DNA from: Akkermansiaceae bacterium
GTDB taxonomy: Bacteria > Verrucomicrobiota > Verrucomicrobiia > Verrucomicrobiales > Akkermansiaceae
Direction of reading: 5' to 3'
Assembly (NCBI GenBank): GCA_029252325.1
Contig: JAQXBQ010000072.1
Span: 1-33,457 of the forward strand
Length of the DNA: 33,457 bases
The notes beneath the pieces are model-generated. The model was not told the DNA's origin. It searched no databases and saw only the letters and a list, made by a program, of their open reading frames with translations. Position numbers and translations under genes: made by a program. Below are positions 24,676 through 33,457 of this stretch, in pieces. Positions within the stretch are counted from its first letter, which is position 1. Each line of letters starts with the position of its first letter.

Positions 24676-25512
24676 TTAGAGCACAAAATCCTCGCCGAGG
24701 TAGTGTTTACGGGCGAGTGGATTGTCGGCAATATCTTTTGCCTCGCCTTCCAGAATGAGTTGTCCTTCATGAAGTAGGTAGGCGTGATCGGTAATGTGCA
24801 GAGTTTCACGGACATTGTGGTCAGTGATTAAAATAGAGAGTCCATCTTGATCGCGTAAATCTCTGACAATGGTTTGAATGTCCCCAACAGCAATCGGATC
24901 AACTCCACTGAAGGGCTCATCAAGCATGAGTAGTGTTGGGTCAGTGCATAGCGAGCGGGCAATAGTGAGGCGGCGTTTCTCACCCCCAGAAAGGGATAAG
25001 GCTTCAGACTTACGAAGCTTGGAAATATTGAAGCGCTCGAGTAGCTGGTCGGCACGATGGTGGCGTTCTTTACGGCTCAGGTCTTTCCGGGTTTCGAGAA
25101 CAGCGAGGAGATTTTCAATTACACTGAGATTGCGAAAGATAGATTCTTCTTGGGGGAGGTAGCCCATGCCTAATCTGGCGCGTTTGTGCATCGGGAGCGT
25201 CGAAATATCATTGCCCGAAAAATGCACAACGCCGGTGTCTGCTGGAATAAGACCAGCGATCATATAAAAACTGGTGGTCTTACCGGCGCCGTTTGGGCCG
25301 AGTAAGCCAACAATTTCGCCCTCACGTACACTCAGGTTGACGTCGTTGACCACAGTGCGACCAGCATAAGATTTCATTAAGCCACGAGCCTCAAGTAGGG
25401 TGGGTGAGTTGCGGCGCGCTGCTGTGTCTAGGTGTAGTGTAGTATGATCTGACGGTGGAGCCAGTGCTGGCGATTTTTCTGCCGGTAACTCGTTTGACAT
25501 AATTTCTGACAT
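24676..25512 (-). CDS. lptB: LPS export ABC transporter ATP-binding protein
   Basis: ATPase of the LptB2FGC complex that extracts LPS from the inner membrane. Walker A is GPNGAGKTT (residues 72-80), the Q loop lies in GYLPQEESIFRNLSV, the signature is LSGGEKRR, Walker B is LLMLDEPFSGVDP and the switch His is in ITDHNVRET. GYLPQEESIFRNLSVIENL is diagnostic of LptB. The 278 residues include about 38 extra N-terminal residues with no fold signal (Pro/Ala-rich), longer than E. coli LptB (241). A second ATG four codons in (residue 5) may be the real start. An AGGG precedes the first. It lies 40 bases after lptA. Confidence 0.96.
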   Translation of the reverse strand: MSEIMSNELPAEKSPALAPPSDHTTLHLDTAARRNSPTLLEARGLMKSYAGRTVVNDVNLSVREGEIVGLLGPNGAGKTTSFYMIAGLIPADTGVVHFSGNDISTLPMHKRARLGMGYLPQEESIFRNLSVIENLLAVLETRKDLSRKERHHRADQLLERFNISKLRKSEALSLSGGEKRRLTIARSLCTDPTLLMLDEPFSGVDPIAVGDIQTIVRDLRDQDGLSILITDHNVRETLHITDHAYLLHEGQLILEGEAKDIADNPLARKHYLGEDFVL

Positions 25513-25552
25513 ATTCCCTAATTTAATATAGCGAGATTCTTTCTAGCGAGAA

Positions 25553-26458
25553 TTATTTTTTGGGGACGGCTTGCATGACCCATTTTCCCTGACTGGTAAT
25601 GATGCTCTCGATATCTTTGTCTCTCATGATGAGCCTAATCCATTGGCCGTCTTCCGCGGCCTGCAGGTATTCGTTAGCACTTTGTTGCAGTGTTGGGCGC
25701 CCACCTTTAAGTATCATTTCACCAGTTTTTGCATTGTAGCTGGCAGTGTTGCCTGACGCAAGAAAGGATTGGCCATCGTTGTTTTCACCCGTAATTCTCA
25801 CGTTTCCTGAGGCGATGATTTCTTTGAGGTCTCCTCGGCTTGAGAAGCTATTGGCTGATTGATCGGCTTGATTTTTTTGCGTAACGTCGGTTTTTTTCGC
25901 TGACGTGTTCTGTTTCTTTTTTTTAGGTTTATTATTGAATAAGATTTTGAGTTCATCATCGCATCTCAGCTTGAACGCTGAGTTGGACTCATCAAGTCTG
26001 ATGTTTTTGAGATAAGTCAGAATACCGTTTTCGTTATCAAAATAAATACCGCCATCACACTTTATTTTGATAGTGGCTGGCTCTTCCTCGGTGTCGGCTT
26101 TCTTATTATCGGCCGTTTCTTTTTTTGAAGCTGGGGGAGGTGTTTGATTTGGTTTTGCTGATGAGCCTTTGTTGGCCTGTTGCGCTTGATTGCTACGCTT
26201 GAGGAAAGAGCGCATTTTTTTGTCGGCAACAGCGGACTGTTCATCGCTCTGCTTGATGGTGGTCTCTACATTTTTTTGGCGCTGGTTATGGCTATCAGTA
26301 TTAGTGGTCGATAGGCTGTCAATTTGTTTGAGTTTGTTATCTGAAGGGGATGCTGGTGGAGCTGCCGTCGAAAATGGTGATTGAACGATTAATAGCACAA
26401 TCATAACCGCTGCAGGAGGTATCCATTTGGTTGTTGTAGTTAAGCGGTAGTATTGCAT
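25553..26458 (-). CDS. lptA: LptA/OstA-like periplasmic LPS transport protein
   Basis: The periplasmic bridge protein that carries LPS between membranes. A signal peptide (about residues 1-32: a basic start, then PPAAVMIVLLIVQSPFSTAA) precedes a long low-complexity segment rich in Q, S, N and K (about 35-130). The OstA domain follows (about 130-300), with IKIKCDGGIYFDNENGILTY, LKEIIASGNVRITGEN and FLASGNTASYNAKTGEMILK, whose repeated GNV/GNT-strand pattern is typical of the LptA beta-jellyroll. At 301 residues it is much longer than E. coli LptA (185) because of the linker and a Lys-rich insertion. The position between lptC and lptB supports the call. Confidence 0.86.
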   Translation of the reverse strand: MQYYRLTTTTKWIPPAAVMIVLLIVQSPFSTAAPPASPSDNKLKQIDSLSTTNTDSHNQRQKNVETTIKQSDEQSAVADKKMRSFLKRSNQAQQANKGSSAKPNQTPPPASKKETADNKKADTEEEPATIKIKCDGGIYFDNENGILTYLKNIRLDESNSAFKLRCDDELKILFNNKPKKKKQNTSAKKTDVTQKNQADQSANSFSSRGDLKEIIASGNVRITGENNDGQSFLASGNTASYNAKTGEMILKGGRPTLQQSANEYLQAAEDGQWIRLIMRDKDIESIITSQGKWVMQAVPKK

Positions 26459-26504
26459 GGGTTGTGGTAAAAAAAGAGTGTTGTTCAGCCGAAGTTACTG
26501 AAGG

Positions 26505-27071
26505 TTATCGTTGGCTTTCTGGGACAGGTTTTGATTTGAGGTAAAAAAGCGAGGCTGCCGGGCCGATAATGAAGCCTTGCCCAGTATTGATATCGTAGAC
26601 CATGCCTGCGCCTGATGTTTGAAAGTCTTTACCGCTGATGTATATAGCTTCTTCGGCTTTAAGAATTGCATCGTTTTCCTTGTAGGTAGCCCGTTTGACT
26701 TTCGTGCGAGCCTGAATGTCACCGTTTTCGTCGTATAATTCTAGGGACACGTCACGTGCTTCAACAGTGTTGCCTTTAATGATTTCCATTCTGTCTGCAT
26801 GAAGGAGCGACAAGGGCTTAAAGTTTTCGTCGTAGCGAGGGAGTCTTACTTGCCTCAGAACAGTATCGCTATGCATTTGTCCTAACAGGGAGAGGCTTGA
26901 TTTCTTTTTCTTTGGCTTCGATTGTGAGCTTAAATTCGTAGCTTTGGCTTCAATCTTGTTGGGCTCCTTCTCAGTTTGACTGAGTGAAGAAGTTTGTGTT
27001 TGTTTGCCGTTTTTACATGCGACAAGCGCAAAAATTGTCATGACAACCACGAAACATGGCCGAAGGGCCAA
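26505..27071 (-). CDS. lptC: LptC-like lipoprotein, LPS export component
   Basis: A 188-residue protein with a lipoprotein-type signal (PCFVVVMTIFALVAC, lipobox LVAC at Cys19). A polar linker and a beta-jellyroll-like domain follow (LLHADRMEIIKGNTVEARDV, ENGDIQARTKVKRATY, FQTSGAGMVYDINTGQGFI). LptC is normally anchored by a TM helix, so lipid anchoring is a variation. The start is TTG at 27071: the frame is open further upstream but has no ATG, and the first internal ATG would cut the signal peptide. The assignment rests on domain pattern and on the kdsA-lptA-lptB context, so it is somewhat less certain than its neighbours. Confidence 0.78.
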   Translation of the reverse strand: MALRPCFVVVMTIFALVACKNGKQTQTSSLSQTEKEPNKIEAKATNLSSQSKPKKKKSSLSLLGQMHSDTVLRQVRLPRYDENFKPLSLLHADRMEIIKGNTVEARDVSLELYDENGDIQARTKVKRATYKENDAILKAEEAIYISGKDFQTSGAGMVYDINTGQGFIIGPAASLFYLKSKPVPESQR

Positions 27072-27139
27072 GTTGGCTGAGCTATGGTGATGACGGAAGG
27101 TTTTCGTAATGGTGATCTGTAGAATTGAGAACGTATCAC

Positions 27140-27955
27140 TTAGCCAACATCGTGGGCAGCGTGATGCACGGCAAGTAAACGAGTAAGAACAGCTTCAATC
27201 TCATTAAGCGGAATCTGGTTGGGACCATCCGAAAATGCTTTTTTAGGATTAATGTGAGTTTCCATAAACACACCATCGACACCTGTAGCAATCGCTGCCC
27301 TTGCCAATACAGGAGCAAGTTCGCCATCTCCACCTGTGGTGCCTCCATCTCCGCCTGGACGTTGCACAGAGTGGGTAGCATCAAAAATAACTTTCATGCC
27401 CATGTCGCGCATCCAGTAGAGTGAGCGCATATCAGCGACGAGATTGTTGTAACCAAAGGTGGAGCCTCGCTCGGTGATGTAGAAGTGTTCGCAGTTGAAG
27501 TGCTTCATCTTTCCTGCGATGGGCTTTACATCCCAAGGTGCTAAAAATTGTCCCTTTTTGATGTTAATAGGACGTCCCGTTTTGGCACAAGCTTCCAGTA
27601 AATCAGTCTGGCGACACAGGAATGCCGGAACCTGCAACATATCTACGGTTTCAGCTGCGATGGAAGCCTCCTCGGGGGTGTGTATATCTGTGCTAACGGG
27701 AATGCCGAGCTCCTTGCCTATTTCTCCAAGAATGCGACAGCCTTCTACGACTCCTGGGCCGCGAAAGGAATCAACGGAGGTGCGATTAGCCTTGTCATAG
27801 GAAGCTTTAAAAATGAACTGAATGCCAGTGCGCTGTGCAATCTCTTTGAGAGATCGTGCCATTTGCCATGCAAATTCCTCAGACTCGAGAGCACATGGAC
27901 CAAGGATAAAAAAAGGGGCGGAGGGATCAAGGGTAAGGTTGCCGATTTGACTCAT
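27140..27955 (-). CDS. kdsA: Kdo-8-phosphate synthase
   Basis: Condenses phosphoenolpyruvate with arabinose-5-phosphate to make 3-deoxy-D-manno-octulosonate 8-phosphate for the LPS inner core. The 271-residue TIM barrel has FILGPCALESEEFAWQM, FIFKASYDKANRTSVDSFRG, DATHSVQRPGGDGG and the metal-site ETHINPKKAFSDGPNQIPL. Cys21 in GPC marks the metal-dependent class (E. coli has Asn here), with His, Glu and Asp ligands all present. It lies 78 bases after the ROK gene and 68 bases before lptC, tying Kdo synthesis to LPS export. Confidence 0.97.
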   Translation of the reverse strand: MSQIGNLTLDPSAPFFILGPCALESEEFAWQMARSLKEIAQRTGIQFIFKASYDKANRTSVDSFRGPGVVEGCRILGEIGKELGIPVSTDIHTPEEASIAAETVDMLQVPAFLCRQTDLLEACAKTGRPINIKKGQFLAPWDVKPIAGKMKHFNCEHFYITERGSTFGYNNLVADMRSLYWMRDMGMKVIFDATHSVQRPGGDGGTTGGDGELAPVLARAAIATGVDGVFMETHINPKKAFSDGPNQIPLNEIEAVLTRLLAVHHAAHDVG

Positions 27956-28033
27956 GATTAAATGTAACTAGGACGATTCAAGTTAAGCATGAACAGGGCA
28001 AATGGCACGTTAAAACTCAAGCCATGTTGTTTT

Positions 28034-28987
28034 TTATGTCTCTGCAGATGTTTCTTCGAGCGCCAAGGTAGCAGCCCCGATGATGCCAGCATCATTACTG
28101 AATTGAGCAGGGATAATTTCGAGCCCATTAAGAAAGGCTGGAGCCAGTTGTTTTTGGATGCTTTCTTTGAGCGGGTCAAAAAGAAGCTCAGCAGCCTTGG
28201 CAACACCTCCGCCAATGATGATGGCGGCTGGGTTGAGAAGCCAGCAAGCGTTGACTACTGTGCATGCAAGTTTTTGGGCGATACCCTGCCATATTTCTAC
28301 TGCCAGCTGATCTCCTTGAGCGGCTGCTTGAGACAGAGCCACTGGGCTACATTCAGTAACGCTTTTATCGATATTGTGGTTAGCGTAGAATTGTCGAGCA
28401 TCGGCTGCTATCTCATTGTTTCCAATGTAGTCTTCCAGTGAGCCGAGGTTTCCATATGCACCTTCTCTGCCTGCGTGGTCGATCGATGTCTGGCCTAACT
28501 CACCGGCAACGGATTGGGCGCCGCGCAGCATATGGCCGTGAGTGATAATGCCACCACCAACACCGGTGCCTAGAGTGATGCAGACAAGGTGATCCTTGCC
28601 CATGCCAGCTCCTACTTTCCACTCGGCATAGGCCATGCAATTGGCATCATTTTCCACCGCAACGGGGAGCTTGGTGCGATCTTGTAGAATATCGCGCAAA
28701 GCAATGTTGGTCCAACCCCTGACGTTGGTCAGATTGTGAATGGTGCCCGTCTTGAAATCAACAAAGCCAGGGACACCTACTCCTATGGCACTTATCTCGG
28801 GGTGGTGTGCGCGCAAATCATCGATGACATAGATGATAGCTTCGATTAGAGGTTCGGCTTCGTTGAAGTCCTCAGTGGCAATAGCAGGTGCTTGGGCAAT
28901 GACTTCATGGCCTCGAACAACACCGAATTTGACGCTGGTTCCGCCAAAATCGATACCGAGGGAGAGGGGTGTGAGTGCTTGATTCAT
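28034..28987 (-). CDS. ROK-family sugar kinase lacking zinc ligands
   Basis: A 317-residue ROK kinase (glucokinase or N-acetyl-sugar kinase type). It has the ATP-binding DFGGTSVK (residues 13-20), catalytic Asp114 in VENDANCMAY, the GTGVGGGI loop (140-147) and a C-terminal IIIGGGVAKAAELL. The family zinc site (GHxxxxx plus CxCGxxGC) is absent: GELGQTSIDHAGREGAYGN replaces it, with Gln for His and no cysteines. Such polyphosphate-glucokinase-like members exist, so it may still be active. Substrate preference cannot be read. Its ATG overlaps the coaX stop by four bases (ATGA), so it is translationally coupled to coaX. Confidence 0.93.
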   Translation of the reverse strand: MNQALTPLSLGIDFGGTSVKFGVVRGHEVIAQAPAIATEDFNEAEPLIEAIIYVIDDLRAHHPEISAIGVGVPGFVDFKTGTIHNLTNVRGWTNIALRDILQDRTKLPVAVENDANCMAYAEWKVGAGMGKDHLVCITLGTGVGGGIITHGHMLRGAQSVAGELGQTSIDHAGREGAYGNLGSLEDYIGNNEIAADARQFYANHNIDKSVTECSPVALSQAAAQGDQLAVEIWQGIAQKLACTVVNACWLLNPAAIIIGGGVAKAAELLFDPLKESIQKQLAPAFLNGLEIIPAQFSNDAGIIGAATLALEETSAET

Positions 28988-29796
28988 GAGTATGAGATAT
29001 TGAGATTTGCGATGATCCTCAGGCCGTCTAGTGTGAGGTCTGGGGCAAGTTGATCGATTTCACTGAGTCCGTTAATGATCAGCGGGGCGTCGCCACCTGT
29101 AGCTACAACAAGTGGCTTGGTGGAGAATTCTTTATACAGATTGCGAAGGATTTCACGCACTAAGCCGCGATATCCATAAACTGCGCCTGCTAGCATAGCT
29201 TGTTCGGTTGATTTGCCGATGACTTGTTGGGGCTCCTGAAGAGTAATGTGGGGGAGTAGGGCAGTGCGATTTGCTAGTCCCTCGGTCATCGAGGCAAGAC
29301 CGGGGGCAATGACTCCTCCCTGGTAGGATGATAATTGTGCGTCTCCAGTTTTCTTCTTAATCTCACCGTCGTTCGTGTTAGCTTGCACTCCTTTATAGTC
29401 GTTCGCTGAAGCCACTACATCGAAGGTTACCGCCGTGCCAAAATCTAGCACGATGCAGGGGCTGTTATACTTTGAATGTGCTCCGACTGCGTTGGCGAGC
29501 CGGTCAGCACCGATCTGTTCGGGTTTGGGGTAATTAATACCGATGGGTAAGTTGCTGAGGTGGCTGAGCTGGTGGCAGGGTTTGCTGCTGAGGTATGATG
29601 CCAGCGTGGCTGCTTTGTCGGGAACAACGGAACTGATAATCGACGCATCCCAGCTGATCTCATTAAGTGCATCAGCTAACGACTGTTGAGAAATTTCTGG
29701 AGTAGGGATGATGGCACGCCACGATTCAAGACAGTCACCATTAGCAAGGGCCAGTTTGGTGCGTGTATTTGAGTTGTCTACAATGAGAGTGCGCAT
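28984..29796 (-). CDS. coaX: Type III pantothenate kinase
   Basis: First step of coenzyme A synthesis: ATP-dependent phosphorylation of pantothenate. The 270 residues carry the class III motifs: N-terminal phosphate-binding VDNSNTRTK (residues 6-14), GADR (96-99, catalytic Asp98), DFGTAVTFDVV (118-128) and YQGGVIAPGLASM (158-170). Between the DFGTAVT strand and YQGGVI there is an insertion of about 25 polar residues (130-157, NDYKGVQANTNDGEIKKK-type) that ordinary CoaX lacks. Ser9 replaces the usual Gly of DxGNT. It is the first gene of the minus-strand cluster, coupled to the ROK kinase by a 4-base overlap. A terminator upstream isolates it from amt. Confidence 0.93.
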   Translation of the reverse strand: MRTLIVDNSNTRTKLALANGDCLESWRAIIPTPEISQQSLADALNEISWDASIISSVVPDKAATLASYLSSKPCHQLSHLSNLPIGINYPKPEQIGADRLANAVGAHSKYNSPCIVLDFGTAVTFDVVASANDYKGVQANTNDGEIKKKTGDAQLSSYQGGVIAPGLASMTEGLANRTALLPHITLQEPQQVIGKSTEQAMLAGAVYGYRGLVREILRNLYKEFSTKPLVVATGGDAPLIINGLSEIDQLAPDLTLDGLRIIANLNISYS

Positions 29797-29894
29797 GAGG
29801 TATGGGTGATGAGTCAGTGCTCGCTGAGAATATAGAGTGAGTTCAAGGGGTATGGAAAGTACTGGATAGAGAAAAGGACAGAAAAATAGGACAG

Positions 29895-29925
29895 AAAAAA
29901 GCCGGAGGAGCAGTGCTCCCCCGGC
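29895..29925 (-). terminator. Strong terminator of the minus-strand amt gene
   Basis: On the minus strand GCCGGGGGAGC pairs with GCTCCTCCGGC around a three-base loop, with one internal mismatch, followed by six T residues. It lies about 22 bases after the amt stop and separates amt from the coaX cluster. Confidence 0.92.
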
Positions 29926-29947
29926 TATTCGTTGTTATGATGGTTAA

Positions 29948-31294
29948 TTAGTCGTTGTAAGCTGGTGAACCGTGTTCTGCCACGTCGAGACCTTCGTGCT
30001 CCTCTTTCTCGTCAACTCTCACGCCAATAGTGAGCTTGATAATAGAGAAGACAATGATCGAGAAGATGAATGCGGCAGCCGCTACGGCGAGCACTCCTAC
30101 AAGCTGACCACCGATGGTGAATCCACTGTCAGTGGTGTCGAAAAGCGCACAGGCCAAGATTCCCCATACACCGCAGATGCCGTGAACTGAGATAGCACCT
30201 ACTGGATCATCGATCTTTATCTTATCGAAGAAGAGGATAGAGAATACTACGATAACACCTGCAACCAGTCCGATCAGTAAGGCGCCGTTGGTTGACACGA
30301 TGTCAGCGTTAGCCGTGATGCCAACGAGGCCAGCTAGGAATCCGTTGAGTGCCATGGATAGGTCTGGCTTTTTGAGAACAATCCACGAAGTGAACATGGA
30401 ACCAAGAGCACCTGTGCAAGCGGCAAGAGTAGTTGTTGTAAATACTAGGCCGAGGGGTCCAGGGGCTGCAGAAAGAACGGAACCTCCGTTGAATCCAAAC
30501 CATCCGAAGAAGAGTAAGAATACACCGATTGTGGCAAGAGGTAGGTTTGATGGCAGGATTGGCTTCATGCCGTTCTTAGTATACTTGCCCTTCCGTGGTC
30601 CGAGGATGATAACGCAAGCAAGAGCTGCGAATCCACCAAAGGCGTGAACAACTGCGGAACCGGCAAAATCCTTAAAGCCGTTGCCATCGTTGAGGCTGGC
30701 CATCCAGCCGCCGCCCCAGTGCCAGGAACCGACAATTGGGTATGCGAGACCTACGAGCACTGTCGCAAAGATCATGAAGCTTGGAAGCTTTACGCGTTCG
30801 GCTACAGCTCCAGAAACAATAGTGGCAGCGGTGGCGGCGAACATAGCCTGGAAAATGAAGTCTCCATATCCGGTCATTGCAAGGCCTACGCCTCCGTAGC
30901 CGAAGGTATCATCGATATTCCCTTCGCCAAATGGTCCGCCAATACTAAACCAGCCGTTAAAGTCGCCTGGGTAGTGAGTGTTGAACCCAACAAGGCAGTA
31001 GGTTACGATACCAATTGCAATGATGAAGCAGTTTTTGAATAGAATGTTTACCGTGTTTTTCCGTTGAGTCAGACCAGCTTCGAGAGAAGCAAATCCTAGG
31101 TGCATGAGAAAAACAAGGGCTGCAGCAATACATGTCCAAAGCATGGATGTGGTGAAAAAGTCGAAAGCGTAGGCGTAATCGCCTTGGCCTGCAACTAGCT
31201 CATCATAACCTGCTTTTGTTTCAGCATCGTCAGCTAACAAAGATCCTGTTCCTATTGCTAGGATGGATAAGGGTAATATTGATTTAGTAATCAT
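29948..31294 (-). CDS. amt: Ammonium transporter, Amt family (minus-strand copy)
   Basis: Inner-membrane ammonium channel. The 448 residues begin with a cleavable signal-like segment (ILPLSILAIGTGSLLAD) followed by 11 TM helices. The pore twin histidines are in SAVVHAFGG and AISVHGICGVWG, the external Trp site is in SWHWGGGW and the DFAG turn is in FKDFAGSAVVH. The C-terminal regulatory tail EHEGLDVAEHGSPAYND is the PII-contact motif of Amt proteins. It is a clearly different paralogue from the plus-strand copy (its C-terminal half is less E. coli AmtB-like). Its promoter is a sigma-54 sequence, with a CA-rich 31-base leader and no Shine-Dalgarno sequence. No glnK/glnB gene lies beside it in the window. 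Confidence 0.97.
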   Translation of the reverse strand: MITKSILPLSILAIGTGSLLADDAETKAGYDELVAGQGDYAYAFDFFTTSMLWTCIAAALVFLMHLGFASLEAGLTQRKNTVNILFKNCFIIAIGIVTYCLVGFNTHYPGDFNGWFSIGGPFGEGNIDDTFGYGGVGLAMTGYGDFIFQAMFAATAATIVSGAVAERVKLPSFMIFATVLVGLAYPIVGSWHWGGGWMASLNDGNGFKDFAGSAVVHAFGGFAALACVIILGPRKGKYTKNGMKPILPSNLPLATIGVFLLFFGWFGFNGGSVLSAAPGPLGLVFTTTTLAACTGALGSMFTSWIVLKKPDLSMALNGFLAGLVGITANADIVSTNGALLIGLVAGVIVVFSILFFDKIKIDDPVGAISVHGICGVWGILACALFDTTDSGFTIGGQLVGVLAVAAAAFIFSIIVFSIIKLTIGVRVDEKEEHEGLDVAEHGSPAYND

Positions 31295-31336
31295 AGGTTG
31301 TTGGTTGTTGTTTGGTAGTTTGAAAAAACAACTTCA

Positions 31337-31351
31337 GCATGTGGCGTGCCA
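31337..31351 (-). promoter_or_regulatory. Sigma-54 promoter of the minus-strand amt
   Basis: On the minus strand TTGGCAC, five bases, ATGCT: the GG and GC of the -24 and -12 elements are present at the correct 12-base offset. The only mismatch is A for T in the -12 box. The predicted start is near 31325, 31 bases before the ATG. It is back to back with the plus-strand promoter. Confidence 0.75.
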
Positions 31352-31391
31352 AGAACGAAAACAGGAGCGGTAAAATTAGAACGGAGAGAGT

Positions 31392-31406
31392 TGGCACGCA
31401 TATTGC
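31392..31406 (+). promoter_or_regulatory. Sigma-54 promoter of the plus-strand amt
   Basis: TGGCAC, five bases, TTGC: a perfect match to the -24/-12 consensus, with GG and GC 12 bases apart. The predicted start is near 31418, which gives a leader of about 95 bases. RpoN promoters need an enhancer-binding activator such as NtrC, and I see no classical TGCAC-N-GTGCA site in the intergenic region. Confidence 0.9.
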
Positions 31407-31416
31407 TTAAATTATC

Positions 31417-31428
31417 TCGCGCGCGCGA
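31417..31428. repeat. 12-bp CG palindrome at the predicted amt start site
   Basis: TCGCGCGCGCGA is a perfect palindrome of alternating C and G, directly at the predicted transcription start (about 31418) of the plus-strand amt. Nothing else in this AT-rich 218-base region is as GC-rich. Confidence 0.6.
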
Positions 31429-31512
31429 AAGACCTGATAAAATCAACAAATATTTTTTTGATTCGGCGCACAAACAACGCAAACCAGATAAAAAACTGAA
31501 ACTATACTTAAT

Positions 31513-32826
31513 ATGATGAAACTAATTAAAACCTACTGTATGCCGTTGTTCCTTTTGGCGCTCACGACCTCCCATGCCTGTGCGGCAGATGATACCCTTG
31601 ATACGGGTGATACCGCGTGGATGCTAACTTCCACCGTGCTTGTGTTAATGATGTGTTTGCCTGGTCTGGCATTATTCTATGGTGGACTCGTTCGTGCGAA
31701 GAACGTTCTCAGTATATTTGTTCAGTGTTTTGCCATGGCTGGAGTAATGTCGATCTTATGGGTTGCGTTTGGATATGCCGTTGCTGCAGGTGAGGGTGGC
31801 AATGCTTATTTTGGCTGGGACAAGTCGTTTGCCTTTTTGAATCATATCCAAGAAGCAACACTTAGTGGTACCATCCCCGAAAGTGTCTGGGTAACTTTCC
31901 AGATGACTTTTATTATTATCAGCCCCGCGATTATTGTGGGTGCCTTTGCCGAGCGGATGAAGTTTTCTGCCATGTTAGTCTTTACCGTAATCTGGACGAT
32001 CCTCTCCTACTTGCCGATGTGGCACATGGCATGGGGCGGTAACGGGTTATTCCACAATGCTGGCTGGTTGATGTCGGAGGGCGAGGCTGCGATTGACTTT
32101 GCCGGAGGAAACGTGGTGCATATCAACGCTGGCATCGCTGGTTTGGTGGCATGTATTTTTATCGGAAAACGTAGGGGCTATCCCGGTCCAGCGTTGGTTC
32201 CTCACAACGTGCCCTTCGTACTCGTTGGTGCCGCATTGCTTTGGGTAGGTTGGTTTGGTTTTAATGCTGGGTCTGCTGCTGGAGCAAGTGCTGGTGCTGG
32301 CATGGCGATGCTGACTACCCAGGTGGCATCGGCTGTTGCAGTCGTGGTTTGGATGGCTCTTGAGTGGATTGTTTCTAAGAAGCCCACTGCTGTGGGTGTC
32401 GCTACTGGTGCCGTGGCAGGACTGGTGGCAATCACCCCAGCCGCTGGATCAACTAACGTGGTAGGGGCCCTCATCATTGGCGCAGTCGCCAGTGCAGTAT
32501 GTTATCTCGCAGCTACTAAGCTTAAGCATGCTTTCGGCTATGACGATAGCCTAGATGTCTTTGGTGTGCATGGTGTCGGTGGTATCGTAGGGGCTTTGCT
32601 GACTGGAGTATTTATTCGCGAAGGCGCTGGGGATGGTGGTCTCGCTCAGTTCATCGTGCAGGCCAAGAGTGTGATCTTAACTATCGTCTGGAGCGGTGTA
32701 GCTTCTGTGATCGCCATCTTCGCAGCAAAGATTCTCTGCCGAGGTATTCGGGTGGAAGAGGAGCTTGAGCATGACGGCTTGGACCGCGATGAACATGGCG
32801 AGGAAGCTTACAACTGGGAGGCATAA
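31513..32826 (+). CDS. amt: Ammonium transporter, AmtB-like (plus-strand copy)
   Basis: Inner-membrane ammonium channel of 437 residues, close to E. coli AmtB. A signal peptide (about residues 1-24, LFLLALTTSHACAADD) is followed by 11 TM helices. The twin His motifs are GNVVHINAGIAGL and VFGVHGVGGIVGAL, the gating and periplasmic Trp region is WHMAWGGNGLF, and HNVPFVLVGAALLWVGWFGF is the family signature. The tail EEELEHDGLDRDEHGEEAYN is the PII-binding region. Two adjacent ATGs (31513 and 31516) are possible starts. A perfect sigma-54 promoter precedes it and a strong terminator follows, so it is a single-gene transcript. The pairing with a divergent paralogue suggests different affinities or a sensor/transporter split, which is an inference. 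Confidence 0.97.
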   Translation: MMKLIKTYCMPLFLLALTTSHACAADDTLDTGDTAWMLTSTVLVLMMCLPGLALFYGGLVRAKNVLSIFVQCFAMAGVMSILWVAFGYAVAAGEGGNAYFGWDKSFAFLNHIQEATLSGTIPESVWVTFQMTFIIISPAIIVGAFAERMKFSAMLVFTVIWTILSYLPMWHMAWGGNGLFHNAGWLMSEGEAAIDFAGGNVVHINAGIAGLVACIFIGKRRGYPGPALVPHNVPFVLVGAALLWVGWFGFNAGSAAGASAGAGMAMLTTQVASAVAVVVWMALEWIVSKKPTAVGVATGAVAGLVAITPAAGSTNVVGALIIGAVASAVCYLAATKLKHAFGYDDSLDVFGVHGVGGIVGALLTGVFIREGAGDGGLAQFIVQAKSVILTIVWSGVASVIAIFAAKILCRGIRVEEELEHDGLDRDEHGEEAYNWEA

Positions 32827-32845
32827 ATAACACTCACTGATCTAA

Positions 32846-32875
32846 GTCGGGGCCCGATGGGCCTCGGCTTTTTTT
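32846..32875 (+). terminator. Terminator after the plus-strand amt
   Basis: GTCGGGGCCC pairs with GGGCCTCGGC (two G-T wobbles) around a three-base loop, followed by seven T residues, 20 bases after the amt stop. Confidence 0.88.
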
Positions 32876-32900
32876 GTGCATATTTTCTATGTCAGAAAAT

Positions 32901-32915
32901 TGGCACGCTATTTGC
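32901..32915 (+). promoter_or_regulatory. Sigma-54 promoter of the porin gene
   Basis: TGGCAC, five bases, TTGC: a perfect -24/-12 element with the GG-to-GC spacing of 12 and a preceding T. The predicted start is near 32927, only about six bases before the porin ATG. Confidence 0.9.
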
Positions 32916-32932
32916 TCAACGTTATTTTGATT

Positions 32933-33457
32933 ATGAAAACTACAATCAAGTCACTACTAATAGGCAGCAGTTTACTAACAGCAACTACCGCATTCGCAGA
33001 AATTGAATCTGAAATCTACACAGGATACCATTCCATCTACGAGTTTCGTGGTGTTGATTTTGGGGATGACCTAGTAGACATAGGTGTTGATCTCAACTAC
33101 GAACTCGCTGAGGGTCTATCTTTGAATGGAGGTTTATGGTATGCTAGCTGGGACGAAGCGGGTGGTGAAGGTGATGAGCTTGACCTCTATATAGGCCTAA
33201 CAAAAACGTTGGGTGATTTTGACCTCAGTGTGGGTTACACCAAGTACATGTTTCCGGGTGAAAGTGATATCAACACGGAAGAAGTTTCAGTTGGTATTTC
33301 AACCGAATTGGCATGTGGTCTTGGGTTATCGCTAACCTACTTTGAAGACATTGACGCCATTGATGGTGGTTATCTCGAGTTCGAGGCAGCAAAGAGTGTG
33401 TCGCTCACTGATTCTCTCACCGTAGATTTGGCTGCTGGAGCAGCATGGAGTTATGAT
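32933..33457 (+). CDS. TorF-like outer-membrane porin, cut by the window end
   Basis: A partial gene: 175 codons with no stop before the window ends. A clear signal peptide MKTTIKSLLIGSSLLTATTA ends at AFA, with cleavage after residue 22. The mature part is a chain of short amphipathic strands (SEIYTGYHSIYEFRGVDFG, LSLNGGLWYASWDE, DELDLYIGLTKTLGDFDLSV, EEVSVGISTELACGLGLSLT), as in TorF-family putative porins. It starts 58 bases after the amt terminator from its own sigma-54 promoter. Its location and control suggest it passes ammonium or another nitrogen compound across the outer membrane, which is inferred. Confidence 0.85.
   Translation, partial: MKTTIKSLLIGSSLLTATTAFAEIESEIYTGYHSIYEFRGVDFGDDLVDIGVDLNYELAEGLSLNGGLWYASWDEAGGEGDELDLYIGLTKTLGDFDLSVGYTKYMFPGESDINTEEVSVGISTELACGLGLSLTYFEDIDAIDGGYLEFEAAKSVSLTDSLTVDLAAGAAWSYD

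Follow-up and report, generated by a model that had tools for sequence, protein, structure and literature searches.

Gene order at the end of the contig

The window analyzed here, a stretch of 33,457 nucleotides, is a whole contig (C125) of an Akkermansiaceae genome of 2.49 Mb that is 96% complete. Its right end holds two divergent ammonium transporter genes, amtA and amtB, followed by torF, which encodes a putative porin (Table 1). Pfam assigns these three products to Ammonium_transp, twice, and Gcw_chp. AmtA scores above the cut-off of TIGR00836, and its closest NCBIfam model is the "marine subtype" TIGR03644, whose cut-off it does not reach. For amtB, alignment places the start used in relatives at the second ATG, 31516; its best named matches, Akkermansiaceae bacterium (71%) and Verrucomicrobiaceae bacterium E54 (67%), both belong to the Verrucomicrobiota. 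A preliminary description of this DNA had found no glnK/glnB, ntrB or ntrC in the window. Pfam analysis of eight proteins (24676-33457) agrees, and a genome search places the P-II gene on another contig (C77) and two activator genes on C172 and C190. No RNA families were found by an Rfam scan of the window.

Between the amtB and torF genes is an intrinsic terminator; torF would therefore need to be transcribed from a promoter of its own. Because the window is the whole contig, torF is incomplete, with 175 of about 255 codons present. Even so truncated, its product matches PF09694 with 43.4 bits (cut-off 24); against TIGR02001, with a cut-off of 47.15, the incomplete protein scores 37.7 bits. 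A second torF copy (L184:7831-8514, contig C235), 82% identical to window positions 32933-33457, is also cut off at a contig end and scores 47.4 bits with TIGR02001. Both contigs break inside torF, perhaps as a result of the duplication.

Table 1. Features of the amtA-amtB-torF region and the gene of the candidate activator
Feature	Position	Strand	Description
amtA	29948..31294	-	ammonium transporter, 448 aa; PF00909 E 8e-109
amtA -24/-12 element TGGCACGCCACATGCT	31336..31351	-	1 mismatch: A for first T of TTGC
amtB -24/-12 element TGGCACGCATATTGCT	31392..31407	+	0 mismatches; predicted +1 about 31418
CGCGCGCGCG tract	31418..31427		begins at predicted amtB +1
amtB	31513..32826	+	ammonium transporter, 437 aa; PF00909 E 1e-109
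intrinsic terminator amtB/torF	32844..32870	+	12-pair stem then T run
torF -24/-12 element TGGCACGCTATTTGCT	32901..32916	+	0 mismatches; predicted +1 about 32927, 6 nt before ATG
torF	32933..33457	+	Gcw_chp/TorF-family putative porin, signal peptide; incomplete at contig end; PF09694 E 5e-11
EBP1	C172:11143-12462 (L181)	-	receiver and AAA+ with GAFTGA; no HTH_8

Sigma-54 elements precede all three genes

We scored sigma-54 promoters with the pattern TGGCAC-N5-TTGCW, in which GG and GC are invariant, and expected transcription to start about 12 nt past the C of the -12 half. The preliminary description had proposed a -24/-12 element before each of the amt paralogues and torF, two of them perfect and one with a single mismatch, and we located all three. 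The GG-to-GC distance is 12 bases in these elements, as had been reported. At amtA, the predicted +1 falls at about 31325, giving a leader of about 31 nt. The divergent amt promoters, described earlier as lying back to back, together span 72 bp, with 40 bp separating their two -24 ends.

Matches with up to two mismatches show no excess over chance in the window (27, against 22 expected), and its only perfect matches are the amtB and torF elements. In the whole 2.49 Mb genome there are eight perfect matches, and 131 with at most one mismatch compared to 69 in a reversed-pattern control. Given the density of sites in this genome, the chance that three given genes would each have such a site no more than 150 bp away is about 1e-9. 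As expected for sigma-54 promoters, the sites carry the pattern with its GG and GC, and the genome encodes RpoN (contig C114, from the genome search) and at least one activator.

The earlier statement that no classical NtrC site is present was also borne out: the palindrome TGCACY-N5-RGTGCA gave three matches with two mismatches, against a chance mean of 5.3, and none lies near these promoters. Upstream alignments of P-II, amtA/amtB and torF revealed no common motif apart from the element itself. A CGCGCGCG tract, found only at amtB/amtA and only in the window's genus (g1), sits 11-15 nt past the -12 C of amtB and is kept in 9/9 genomes of that genus with divergent amtA-amtB. Seen from amtA, its center is about 85 bp upstream of the -12, at a distance common for upstream activator sites. 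From its position and conservation, the tract might serve as an operator or as a site for an activator.

Conservation of the elements in the family

To place these sites in the family, 145 genomes were searched and 60 regions, mostly amt/torF, were fetched. When one mismatch at most is allowed, an element precedes 27/30 amtA, 30/40 amtB and 29/65 torF ORFs. The reversed pattern gave none, and such an element precedes 3/286 other ORFs. Within g1, TGGCAC-N6-TGCT is essentially invariant at amtA, amtB and torF, and the spacer and flanks vary: the element columns hold 1.95-2.0 bits of information, the spacer 0.7-1.1 and the flanks 0.4-0.8. The amtA element is kept in 10 of 12 cases in this genus, and all nine amtB elements have at most one mismatch. 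Measured start to start, the divergent amt elements are 54-56 bp apart in g1 and 40-41 bp apart in g9. In one genome that has lost amtB (G012), the element facing the lost gene is reduced to TGGCACGCTACGTG, its -12 half missing. Loss of the elements in close relatives that keep the gene order had been named beforehand as grounds for rejecting the proposal; close relatives with amt-amt-torF instead keep all three, with spacer and flanks changed.

Conservation also bears on the idea that the torF match is a chance or sigma-70-type sequence, with torF read through from amtB or served by a vegetative promoter. A weak sigma-70-like pair, TTGGCA-17-TATTTT (9 of 12), does overlap the torF element. 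However, the columns that are conserved are those of -24/-12 rather than -10/-35, and a strong terminator separates amtB from torF, leaving this account very improbable.

The torF element is characteristic of certain genera (g1, g9, g10 and g14) rather than of the family as a whole. It precedes 12/13 amt-linked torF genes in g1 and 4/4 in g9, compared to 4/10 in g7, 4/20 in g13 and 0/5 in g11; most g13 copies and all g11 copies lack it despite adjoining amt. Two sequences specific to single genera were seen nearby. In g9 (L226, L227, L238, L239), the stretch separating the two divergent amt promoters contains a palindrome-like ATGAATNNNATTCAT, a possible candidate for a regulator site specific to that genus. 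In g13, TGTCCAG occurs upstream of amtB, and its opposite strand is a possible -35 of torF there.

Where the torF element is present in g1, g9, g10, g14 and g16, the ATG follows 13-16 nt past it (exceptions in g1 are G012 and G044), and the predicted leader is therefore about 3-6 nt. Such short leaders were seen in the window (32901-32933) and at L186, L187, L189-L191, L193-L195, L198, L207, L222, L225-L227 and L238-L240. Judging by this spacing, the torF message is possibly a near-leaderless sigma-54 transcript.

TorF is predicted to form a small outer-membrane barrel

Because the window copy is incomplete, we modelled a homologue instead: the TorF of a gammaproteobacterial torF-P-II-amtB locus (L090), 27% identical, using an alignment of nine sequences that included the window's. 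The model is a twelve-stranded barrel with a mean pLDDT of 84. Its best match among solved structures is KdgM (Z 19.1, rmsd 2.0 over 167 residues), followed by VhGalP and NanC. A TorF profile found no porin among PDB sequences at E <= 1. TorF is modelled as a 12-stranded KdgM/NanC-like barrel.

Linkage to ammonium uptake genes extends beyond the family. In a wider sample of 80 amt loci from diverse species, with stretches of up to 11 kb, torF lies within the stretch at eight, and at five of these loci (L086, L090, L092, L100 and L114) it is directly 5' of P-II and amtB. In four of the five, L086, L090 and L092 among them, an element (two mismatches at most) is found close to the start of torF; at L086 it falls slightly within the longest reading frame and 5' of the probable start codon. 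Blocks of this kind with an element occur in proteobacteria, beyond the Verrucomicrobiota. Our literature searches for TorF together with nitrogen or ammonium returned nothing relevant. The shared, preserved promoter suggests that this uncharacterised channel family helps these bacteria scavenge nitrogen.

The earlier proposal of a coregulated porin is supported by the barrel model of a family member and by the torF-P-II-amtB blocks in other phyla, with the correction that the torF element is not family-wide. TorF might instead be a mere neighbor of amt, its element serving a general envelope or growth program and its channel carrying a cargo other than nitrogen, such as sugar acids. The model's nearest folds, KdgM and NanC, are sugar-acid channels, the element is missing in g11 and most of g13, and sigma-54 has been described as a general controller of the bacterial exterior (PMC3162934). 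Yet nearly all torF genes fetched at family loci lie no more than 2.5 kb from amt, the gene adjoins P-II and amtB in unrelated phyla as well, and its element is almost always present in g1 and g9. We therefore regard the neighbor explanation as unlikely, though it keeps real weight, and favor a TorF that would let ammonium or small nitrogen compounds through the outer membrane; the barrel fold leaves the substrate unspecified.

The P-II gene and other candidate targets

In front of the genome's only P-II gene, a perfect element lies 44 nt from the ATG, and an element precedes this gene at 28 of 30 loci, at a distance of 25-57 nt from the ATG. By its promoter sequence, then, the P-II gene on C77 is also a predicted member of the regulon. 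Both amt and P-II genes stand behind -24/-12 promoters, one of the features by which we recognize an NtrC regulon. When glnA was considered as another possible target, the genome gave a single, weak match to glutamine synthetase.

Perfect elements were also seen elsewhere. On C43 (L008:1501-1516), the gene of a lysine-rich histone H1-like protein (MPKKTAKKATKK...) has one 37 nt ahead of its ATG and is possibly a further sigma-54 target. Two more are found on C120 (L013:1501-1516) and C71 (L009:1501-1516); one immediately precedes a small lipoprotein ORF, and the other is about 535 nt upstream of a gyrB-like ORF, an interval that contains no long ORF.

An orphan NtrC-like protein is the likely activator

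The genome search identified two bona fide sigma-54 activators, EBP1 (C172) and EBP2 (C190). EBP1 is encoded next to uppS and is an orphan, with no kinase gene beside it. Its best NCBIfam match is ntrC, at 438 bits, below the cut-off of 558.6, and the match stops at position 408 of the 463 in the model, the point from which a DNA-binding part would be expected. EBP1 therefore has neither the equivalog score nor the helix-turn-helix (HTH) of NtrC; by its domains it is predicted to work like NtrC, but it is not a canonical NtrC. The HTH tail is missing in all 14 EBP1 orthologues of g1, and a Fis-like tail is kept in g7, g13, g14 and g16. Lacking it, the g1 protein probably acts from solution, with no fixed upstream site, and this loss would explain the missing NtrC site.

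Across the 145 genomes, the presence of EBP1 follows that of Amt. An orthologue is missing from 25 genomes, 21 of which also lack Amt, and four genomes have Amt without EBP1. All 19 genomes of g3 lack EBP1, Amt and P-II and retain rpoN and EBP2. The association between EBP1 and Amt has a Fisher p of 2e-18, which becomes 0.018 without g3; between EBP1 and P-II, there is none outside g3 among these genomes. Since g3 is a single clade, its 19 genomes count as one strong loss event rather than 19 independent losses, to which G005 and G106 add one or two weaker events.

The sigma-54 promoters could be real and yet be served by EBP2, an AtoSC/NtrBC-like activator, at a site we did not recognize. EBP2 has a receiver, AAA+ and HTH_8 and adjoins a PAS histidine kinase; no other complete pair of the NtrBC type was seen in this genome. 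The closest model of EBP2, however, is AtoC, and its presence does not track the regulon: nearly all of the 145 genomes retain it, among them the 19 that lack amt, P-II and EBP1. Since it is kept where the regulon is absent, we rank EBP2 second and consider its role as activator rather improbable. The likely activator, on the evidence of domains and co-occurrence, is EBP1, encoded outside the window.

A model for nitrogen scavenging across both membranes

Given the promoter, conservation and genome-wide analyses, we consider it probable that this region belongs to a nitrogen-scavenging regulon that depends on sigma-54, is driven by EBP1 and includes TorF. RNA polymerase with sigma-54 would bind the conserved -24/-12 promoters of amtA, amtB, torF and P-II, a step supported by sequence. 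Gene content suggests that nitrogen limitation is the trigger. When nitrogen is scarce, phosphorylated EBP1, an NtrC-like AAA+ protein, would then remodel the closed complexes. The two Amt channels would be placed in the inner membrane, with P-II gating them and reporting nitrogen status. TorF, predicted to be a small KdgM/NanC-like barrel, probably makes the outer membrane more permeable to ammonium or small organic nitrogen compounds.

A broader version of this model is one we advance tentatively and rate somewhat below even. In several phyla, TorF would be the partner of Amt in the outer membrane, a sigma-54-controlled channel dedicated to ammonium or small nitrogen compounds; the g1 activator, having no DNA-binding domain, would find its promoters only via sigma-54; and torF would be near-leaderless.

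Little has been described of nitrogen regulation outside the Proteobacteria, and the literature searched here assigns the TorF family no function. The conserved promoters allow a specific proposal for TorF, that it takes part in bringing nitrogen through the outer membrane, and the likely activator can be named. Additionally, the HTH of EBP1, lost in one genus and kept in its sisters, offers a natural experiment on sigma-54 activators without upstream sites. The preliminary description was correct both in what it observed and in its main interpretation. To it, this analysis adds P-II as another member, a likely activator and its HTH loss, a co-regulation of torF restricted to some genera, the modelled barrel fold of TorF and a torF-P-II-amtB linkage that reaches beyond the family.

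Comparison with known systems

The enterobacterial NtrC/sigma-54 regulon includes glnK-amtB. The system described here resembles that regulon in its -24/-12 promoters before amt and P-II, its rpoN and its NtrC-like activator. It differs in that the amt and P-II genes are on separate contigs, the g1 activator is an orphan without HTH, no NtrC palindrome is present, and the gene for an outer-membrane barrel joins the set.

Type Ic activators without a DNA-binding domain include CtcC of Chlamydia and FlgR of Helicobacter (PMC3162934, PMC7482065). Like them, EBP1 has a receiver and an AAA+ domain with GAFTGA and no HTH. In contrast to theirs, its predicted targets are nitrogen uptake genes rather than late developmental or flagellar genes, and its sister genera still have the HTH, indicating that the loss is lineage-specific.

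TorF belongs with the TorF/Gcw_chp family (PF09694, TIGR02001) by its Pfam match above the cut-off, and a member of the family is modelled as a 12-stranded barrel. What sets the present case apart is that gene position and promoter tie torF to amt and P-II; a role in nitrogen uptake was not found in the literature searched. With KdgM and NanC, the TorF model shares its fold (Z 17-19, rmsd 2.0-2.8), but sequence identity is 9-13% and the genomic context is ammonium uptake, not acidic sugars.
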